From Emcibacter sp. (lineage in GTDB: Bacteria > Pseudomonadota > Alphaproteobacteria > Sphingomonadales > Emcibacteraceae), in assembly GCA_021774785.1 (NCBI GenBank), contig JAJFIQ010000026.1:496001-560000 (forward strand): a DNA stretch of 64,000 bases, in the 5' to 3' direction. The position numbers and the translations under genes were made by a program. Below the pieces are notes generated by a model that had not been told where the DNA came from, did not search any database, and was given only the letters and a program-made list of their open reading frames with translations. Shown here piece after piece: positions 50,771-51,164 of the stretch (position 1 is its first letter; each line of letters starts with the position of its first letter).

Positions 50771-50803
50771 TAAAAAAAAGCCTTGCCGGTTAGGGCAAGG
50801 CTT
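50771..50803 (-). terminator. Rho-independent terminator (minus strand) after the small membrane protein gene
   Basis: Read on the minus strand, AGCCTTGCC (50802-50794) pairs with GGCAAGGCT (50787-50779) around a six-base loop. A run of eight T residues follows. It ends the transcript of the 65-residue membrane protein gene, about 95 bases after its stop codon. Confidence 0.85.
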
Positions 50804-50897
50804 AGTGTTAAGTACTTATCAGGGCTAAAGTACTCAGGGTATAACAATAAAAAGGATATTTAAAATTCGGGTCAAAAACCTGCATTTAAGTGCGGTT

Positions 50898-51095
50898 TCA
50901 GTCTTCCCATTCTTTCATGATTTCTGTGCGACGCTTAATCATACCATTCGCGATATAGACACATAAACCACCGACTAAAACAGTTACGATCATAAAAGTT
51001 GCTGGAAGAAGCAAGTGGGGCCCTGCCAACAGGATAGACATTAGTAACAATAAAGAAACAATGCCACATCCGATGAACGTAATTGTATTAGCCAT
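50898..51095 (-). CDS. Small two-helix inner-membrane protein, FNR/FixK-type promoter
   Basis: The 65-residue protein has two membrane helices (ITFIGCGIVSLLLLMSILLA and ATFMIVTVLVGGLCVYIANG). They are joined by a short loop and followed by a charged cytoplasmic tail (KRRTEIMKEWED). I do not recognise the family. It has a good ribosome site (AAGGA six bases before ATG), its own promoter with an FNR-type box at about -41.5, and its own terminator. It is therefore a real monocistronic gene, probably turned on at low oxygen. Confidence 0.75.
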   Translation of the reverse strand: MANTITFIGCGIVSLLLLMSILLAGPHLLLPATFMIVTVLVGGLCVYIANGMIKRRTEIMKEWED

Positions 51096-51121
51096 TTTTT
51101 ATCCTTTTCAACTACCTGAGT

Positions 51122-51164
51122 ATTATAACAGCCCCTAGAAACTGCTATCATTGATATAAGTCAA
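51122..51164 (-). promoter_or_regulatory. Class II FNR/FixK-type promoter of the 65-residue membrane protein gene
   Basis: TTGATATAAGTCAA at 51151-51164 matches the FNR/FixK consensus TTGAT-N4-ATCAA at 9 of 10 positions; on the coding strand it reads TTGACTTATATCAA. A perfect minus-strand TATAAT lies at 51127-51122. If transcription begins about seven bases beyond it (near 51116), the box is centred at about -41.5. This is the position used by class II FNR activation. The leader would be about 20 bases. Confidence 0.65.

Follow-up and report, generated by a model that had tools for sequence, protein, structure and literature searches.

Organization of the transcription unit

A low-oxygen promoter in front of a gene of 65 codons has been predicted in a genome of Emcibacter sp. 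We considered the question whether this unit is a promoter that simply drives a small protein or whether it holds a further function. The window, i.e. the whole stretch of DNA analysed, comprises 64,000 nucleotides. Within it the unit consists of the following features:

51151-51164, minus strand: FNR/FixK-type box TTGACTTATATCAA, matching TTGATNNNNATCAA at 9 of 10 positions
51122-51127, minus strand: -10 element TATAAT with TGT before it (extended -10, TGTTATAAT)
51101-51108, minus strand: ribosome-binding site AAAAGGAT
50898-51095, minus strand: open reading frame of 65 codons with ATG start, predicted small membrane protein of two helices
50811-50841, minus strand: hyperconserved block of 31 nt in the 3' untranslated region, TACCCTGAGTACTTtagcCCTGATAAGTACT
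50778-50803, minus strand: stem-loop of an intrinsic terminator, AAGCCTTGCC-loop-GGCAAGGCTT, followed by a T run to about 50772

The open reading frame, the box, the -10 element, the leader, the ribosome site and the terminator are all present as the original prediction had described them. The terminator begins about 95 nt beyond the stop codon, however, and thus lies outside the interval that had been given for the unit, from which the 3' untranslated region was omitted. The protein gene is real, as detailed below, but the picture of a promoter simply driving a small protein is incomplete, since the 31-nt block in the 3' region had been overlooked.

A protein search was carried out in a sample of 60 genomes, 32 of the window's family and 28 of other families of the order. 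The small gene was found in 25 of the 32 family genomes and in none of the 28 others. Of the seven family genomes without it, six have a completeness of 53-83% and one of 91%. The named loci in GTDB contigs belong to Emcibacter sp. and to other alphaproteobacterial MAGs, and we therefore take the family to be Emcibacteraceae. In all 25 leaders a purine-rich ribosome site is visible by eye.

Promoter and regulator

The box had been called a near-perfect FNR/FixK site, which its 9 of 10 matching positions bear out, and a search for the same box in front of homologues had been proposed. The pattern TTGAY-N4-RTCAA is present in 24 of the 25 homologous loci, where 58-64 nt separate its centre from the ATG, and because it recurs at a similar distance the box is more than a chance match. 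Its centre is placed at -42.5 if the -10 element spans -12 to -7, and at -41.5, the position that had been predicted, with a start one base earlier. Scored from the -10 element the centre lies at -42.5 in L005 and between -38.5 and -42.5 over 24 loci. In 10 of 11 loci of the genus g1 the best -10 element as scored is a TATA hexamer after TGT, with a constant spacing that puts the box at -42.5; in the genus g5 the element is weaker.

The genome of the window contains 39 occurrences of TTGAYNNNNRTCAA, compared with 6 for the reversed control, and 20 of TTGATNNNNATCAA, compared with none. Twenty-two of the other 38 TTGAYNNNNRTCAA sites are intergenic and 16 lie within mechanically predicted open reading frames. 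The intergenic boxes adjoin genes for cytochrome D1 (cd1), 5-aminolevulinate synthase, CoxB, CcmC and a universal stress protein, furthermore a ccoN-type gene (TIGR00780, match below the cut-off, gene cut by the locus end) and a gene for a NarK-family transporter (match below the cut-off). One box is situated between an FnrL-like gene and a divergent open reading frame. The best NCBIfam match of the FnrL-like protein is FnrL, with 170 bits at a cut-off of 300; the protein has a CxxCx7C motif, further cysteines and the recognition helix ETISR, and from this motif it would carry an iron-sulphur cluster. Taken together, the conserved box and spacing, this regulator and the FNR regulon in the same genome support at the sequence level the FNR-type control of the small gene that had been predicted.

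Of the 24 genomes with the 3' block, 20 encode an FnrL ortholog that is at least 50% identical (split over two frames in G005). In G009, G012, G015 and G023, which have the block and are 77-95% complete, no ortholog at this identity was detected, so that box and FnrL do not always go together; all four nevertheless keep both box and block.

Several members of the family possess a further FNR-type regulator, which shares the CxxCx7C motif and is 35-38% identical to FnrL (L135-L140). This paralog, which could read the same box, was not found in the window's genome at an E-value of 1e-15.

In the window's own genome the boxes at L080, L082, L096 and L103 lie by genes for cytochrome cd1, a NorC-like cytochrome c, a NarK-family transporter and ccoN; such genes next to FNR boxes suggest that the source organism denitrifies and has a cbb3 oxidase. 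At L073/L096 (C19:383-387.5k) a Crp-type HTH domain is found inside an open frame of 541 amino acids. This frame is located between the NarK-family transporter gene and a radical-SAM gene, which we take to be moaA-like, and has FNR boxes on both sides.

The predicted small membrane protein

Between g1 and g5 the identity at codon positions one, two and three is 0.70, 0.85 and 0.42, respectively, which argues that the open reading frame is translated and under selection at the protein level. Eight residues are invariant in the 24 aligned proteins. AlphaFold2 predicts two helices (residues 2-24 and 26-64) with a mean pLDDT of 84 and a pTM of 0.55, in line with the two-helix protein foreseen, and the protein is presumably inserted into the membrane. 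It had also been said to be of no known family, and in fact no family scored above the cut-off when the 65-residue protein was compared with Pfam, NCBIfam and PHROG. DUF1127 was absent above the cut-off in the Pfam search and was likewise not among its four weak matches. No significant match was obtained in a sequence search of solved structures (best E-value 0.098) or in a fold search (best E-value 8). As a guess, the protein might be a small accessory subunit of a membrane complex used at low oxygen.

A conserved block in the 3' untranslated region

In 24 of the 25 loci the stop codon is followed by a block with the consensus TACCCTGAGTACTT-N4-CCTGATAAGTACT. The block starts 18-58 nt past the stop codon, and the intervening nucleotides are poorly conserved. 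Of its 31 columns 27 are invariant in the 24 loci, which belong to five genera; the four variable columns lie in or beside the loop. A comparison of g1 with g5 gives a mean identity of 0.90 in the block; the values for the open reading frame, third codon positions and the nucleotides separating stop codon and block are 0.67, 0.42 and 0.33, respectively. The longest invariant run of the open reading frame is 3 nt, compared with runs of 14 and 13 in the block. By alignment, the 3' block is thus the most conserved element of the unit, above the open reading frame, and this indicates a second function at the RNA level.

The unit could still be an ordinary FNR-driven small protein gene whose 3' conservation has no separate role, given that the protein is under selection and is retained in G025, a genome that lacks the block. 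Twenty-seven invariant nucleotides over five genera, two of which share 42% of their third codon positions, make this very improbable.

Folding predictions give the block a hairpin, AGUACUU-loop-AAGUACU, whose loop contains CCUGA. In the 23 aligned loci the first paired terminator columns follow 6-7 nt after the block. The terminator stem shows two-sided changes at all 10 counted pairs, and 98% of the cells are paired. None of the 7 pairs of the block hairpin ever varies, so that covariation neither supports nor refutes this hairpin. Consequently, it is the structure that is maintained in the terminator, and the sequence in the block. Runs of 6-9 T follow the terminator in 22 of the 24 loci; the other two have a run of 4, being cut by the contig end in L023 and broken in L029.

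Two further explanations for the block were considered at this point. First, it could be a site for an RNA-binding protein, i.e. a sponge or stability element, with the two CCUGA-(N)-GUACU repeats as two sites. Both repeats and the stem are invariant without compensatory change, as if the sequence itself were read. Against this, single-stranded CCUGA motifs and the U tail of the terminator would equally suit an RNA that acts by pairing, and to our knowledge the block contains no recognised RNA-binding consensus; we consider a protein site distinctly unlikely. Second, since the palindrome AGTACT occurs twice in the block, a transcription factor that controls genes nearby might bind it as DNA. 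The order of stop codon, block and terminator and their strand are fixed in the 24 loci of the five genera, however, while the neighbours change, and we give this explanation the least credence.

We also tested the block as a leader or riboswitch of a downstream Hpt gene. There is no Hpt match in the g5 loci, L013 and L018, and where a next gene was detected in these loci it is a convergent HD-GYP gene or a BTLCP-type gene. The neighbour on this side differs from genus to genus, and the block is therefore not its leader. A short coding region was rejected as well: one frame through the block is open, but there is no shared start codon and the third positions are invariant, which argues against a coding constraint.

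Distribution of the block

With a covariance model of the block, 24 of the 32 family genomes each yield a single strong copy (E-value at most 5.3e-9). G025 passes the model through weak matches elsewhere only. When the search was extended to 296 genomes of the order, 264 of them outside the family, the same 24 genomes scored strongly and no other did. Four weak matches in other families (E-values 0.004-0.009; three genomes, two of family f5 and one of f6) were taken as chance. The core of the block, with up to 3 mismatches, occurs once in the window's own genome, and in a sample of the class it was found in one of 385 genomes, namely the window's own, which is the sole family member sampled. 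Rfam gives no match in the window at the gathering threshold; below the threshold the lowest E-value is 0.04 (29.2 bits, 60 required).

In all 24 genomes the block is located on the mRNA strand beside the terminator. The exception among the genomes with the small gene is G025 (locus L026, 99% complete), where the protein is kept and both box and block are gone; its best FnrL match is the paralog. In this single case the loss couples the box with the block, apart from the protein.

Possible pairing within the mRNA and search for targets

The block might act exclusively in cis, affecting how stable its own mRNA is or how well it is translated; base pairing with the 5' leader would be one way. 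Two duplexes can be proposed, one between UCCUUUU before the block and the AAAAGGA ribosome site, the other between CCTGAGTA of the block and its reverse complement TACTCAGG at the start of the transcript (window 51115-51122, presumed -6 to +2). The pyrimidine tract TATCCTTTT before the block (window 50850-50858) is complementary to the own ribosome site in many loci, and every one of the 10 g5 loci with a block has TACTCAGG, as do L005 and L029. Over all 24 loci cognate 5'-3' pairs have a lower duplex energy than permuted ones (p 0.003). Permuted within genera, however, the difference is not significant (p 0.17 in g1, 0.08 in g5 and 0.51 in eight non-redundant g1 loci). TACTC would furthermore precede the transcription start if the box is near -42, and in g1 the 5' motif varies, in contrast to the paired part of the block. 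Pairing within the mRNA was therefore not retained as a result, and a block acting purely in cis is kept as a rival that we regard as unlikely.

Targets in trans were searched with CTCAGGGTA, which is perfectly complementary to the 5' portion of the block. It occurs at 85 sites in 6 genomes, compared with 31 for the reversed pattern, a control that is not matched for dinucleotides. Six of the 85 sites are the block itself, and the other 79 were examined for nearby starts of open frames of at least 90 amino acids. Four sites, all in G016 and among the few near a likely start, precede genes of Fe-S type, which we take to be nfu-like, sufT-like, ferredoxin-like and Rieske-like. Followed across genomes, CTCAGG is found in one of 28 nfu loci and in one of 30 sufT loci, both in G016, and nfu and sufT as conserved targets were put down to chance; a second sufT locus (L257) has ATCAGGG. 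In the sufT set 2 of the 32 matches had no locus, and in several loci the start is shifted from that of the query. With this one seed in 6 genomes, and with nfu and sufT as the two candidates compared between genomes, the search yielded no conserved target.

Upstream of the nfu orthologs in g1 (L232-L250), TTGATTTT and TTGCCAT-like blocks recur, which may represent a conserved promoter.

Discussion

Our preferred reading, to which we assign a probability of roughly 0.58, is that of an FNR-controlled mRNA with two roles, coding for a small membrane protein and providing, from its 3' untranslated region, a base-pairing small RNA. At low oxygen an FNR-type regulator (FnrL) would bind the box and recruit RNA polymerase in the class II fashion. 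Within the FNR regulon of Emcibacteraceae it would be a single-gene unit that gives rise to two products. The mRNA would be translated into a small inner-membrane protein of two helices, and its 3' end would act as a base-pairing small RNA, either within the whole transcript or as a fragment released by RNase. Such a fragment would have about 70-130 nt and end in the U tail of the terminator. Targets may be recognised by the single-stranded UACCCUG, by CCUGA in the loop and by the invariant flanks. That the protein and the 3' RNA of this oxygen-controlled mRNA serve one pathway, with the RNA also feeding back through TACTCAGG and the ribosome site, is an unlikely extension of this proposal.

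If the mRNA does have this dual function, its RNA would represent an FNR-regulated small RNA family confined to Emcibacteraceae. The two CCUGA-GUACU repeats would then serve in recognition, and we did not find repeats of this type described in the literature searched. A text search of the literature for the block motif gave no bacterial subject by title, and a search for Emcibacter together with sRNA returned a sea anemone subject only. With 27 invariant nucleotides, one strong copy per genome, a conserved promoter and terminator and the natural loss in G025, the block is a sharp candidate. A low-oxygen small RNA on the mRNA of a small protein is consequently directly testable in cultured Emcibacteraceae.

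Several known systems can be compared with this unit. FnrS of Escherichia coli is a stand-alone RNA gene, whereas the candidate described here would form the 3' end of an mRNA. Our candidate RNA would be analogous to NarS, judged by arrangement; we know of no sequence relation between NarS and the Emcibacteraceae block. Published accounts describe NarS as a small RNA derived from the 3' untranslated region of narK in Salmonella, and the likeness lies in an FNR-controlled mRNA, a small RNA at its 3' end and conservation in a limited clade (PMC9438474, PMC8139620). The parent of NarS is a nitrate transporter gene, in contrast to a parent of 65 residues outside known families and an RNA that is a candidate here. 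FnrS resembles the candidate in being described as an FNR-activated small RNA (PMC8139620), and the same account names PcrZ as an FnrL-dependent small RNA of Alphaproteobacteria, with its directness queried (PMC8139620). CpxQ and other small RNAs from 3' untranslated regions are similar in that conservation is described as higher in the 3' region than elsewhere in the parent gene, and differ in regulator, bacteria and parent gene (PMC9438474).

Two systems are alphaproteobacterial. CcaF1-CcsR (CIN1) likewise joins a small protein and small RNA on one transcript, the RNA being predicted in our case; it has a DUF1127 parent, an RpoHI/RpoHII promoter and four CcsR RNAs, unlike the unit studied here with its FNR box and no DUF1127 (PMC10253847). 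UdsC of Rhodobacter sphaeroides, a small RNA from the 3' untranslated region of an mRNA for a hypothetical protein, is tied in its published summary to stress resistance and motility, and is likened to our candidate by description, not by sequence (PMC9779115). Measured against these systems the unit is of a known kind, and the family-restricted RNA candidate is its most interesting part.
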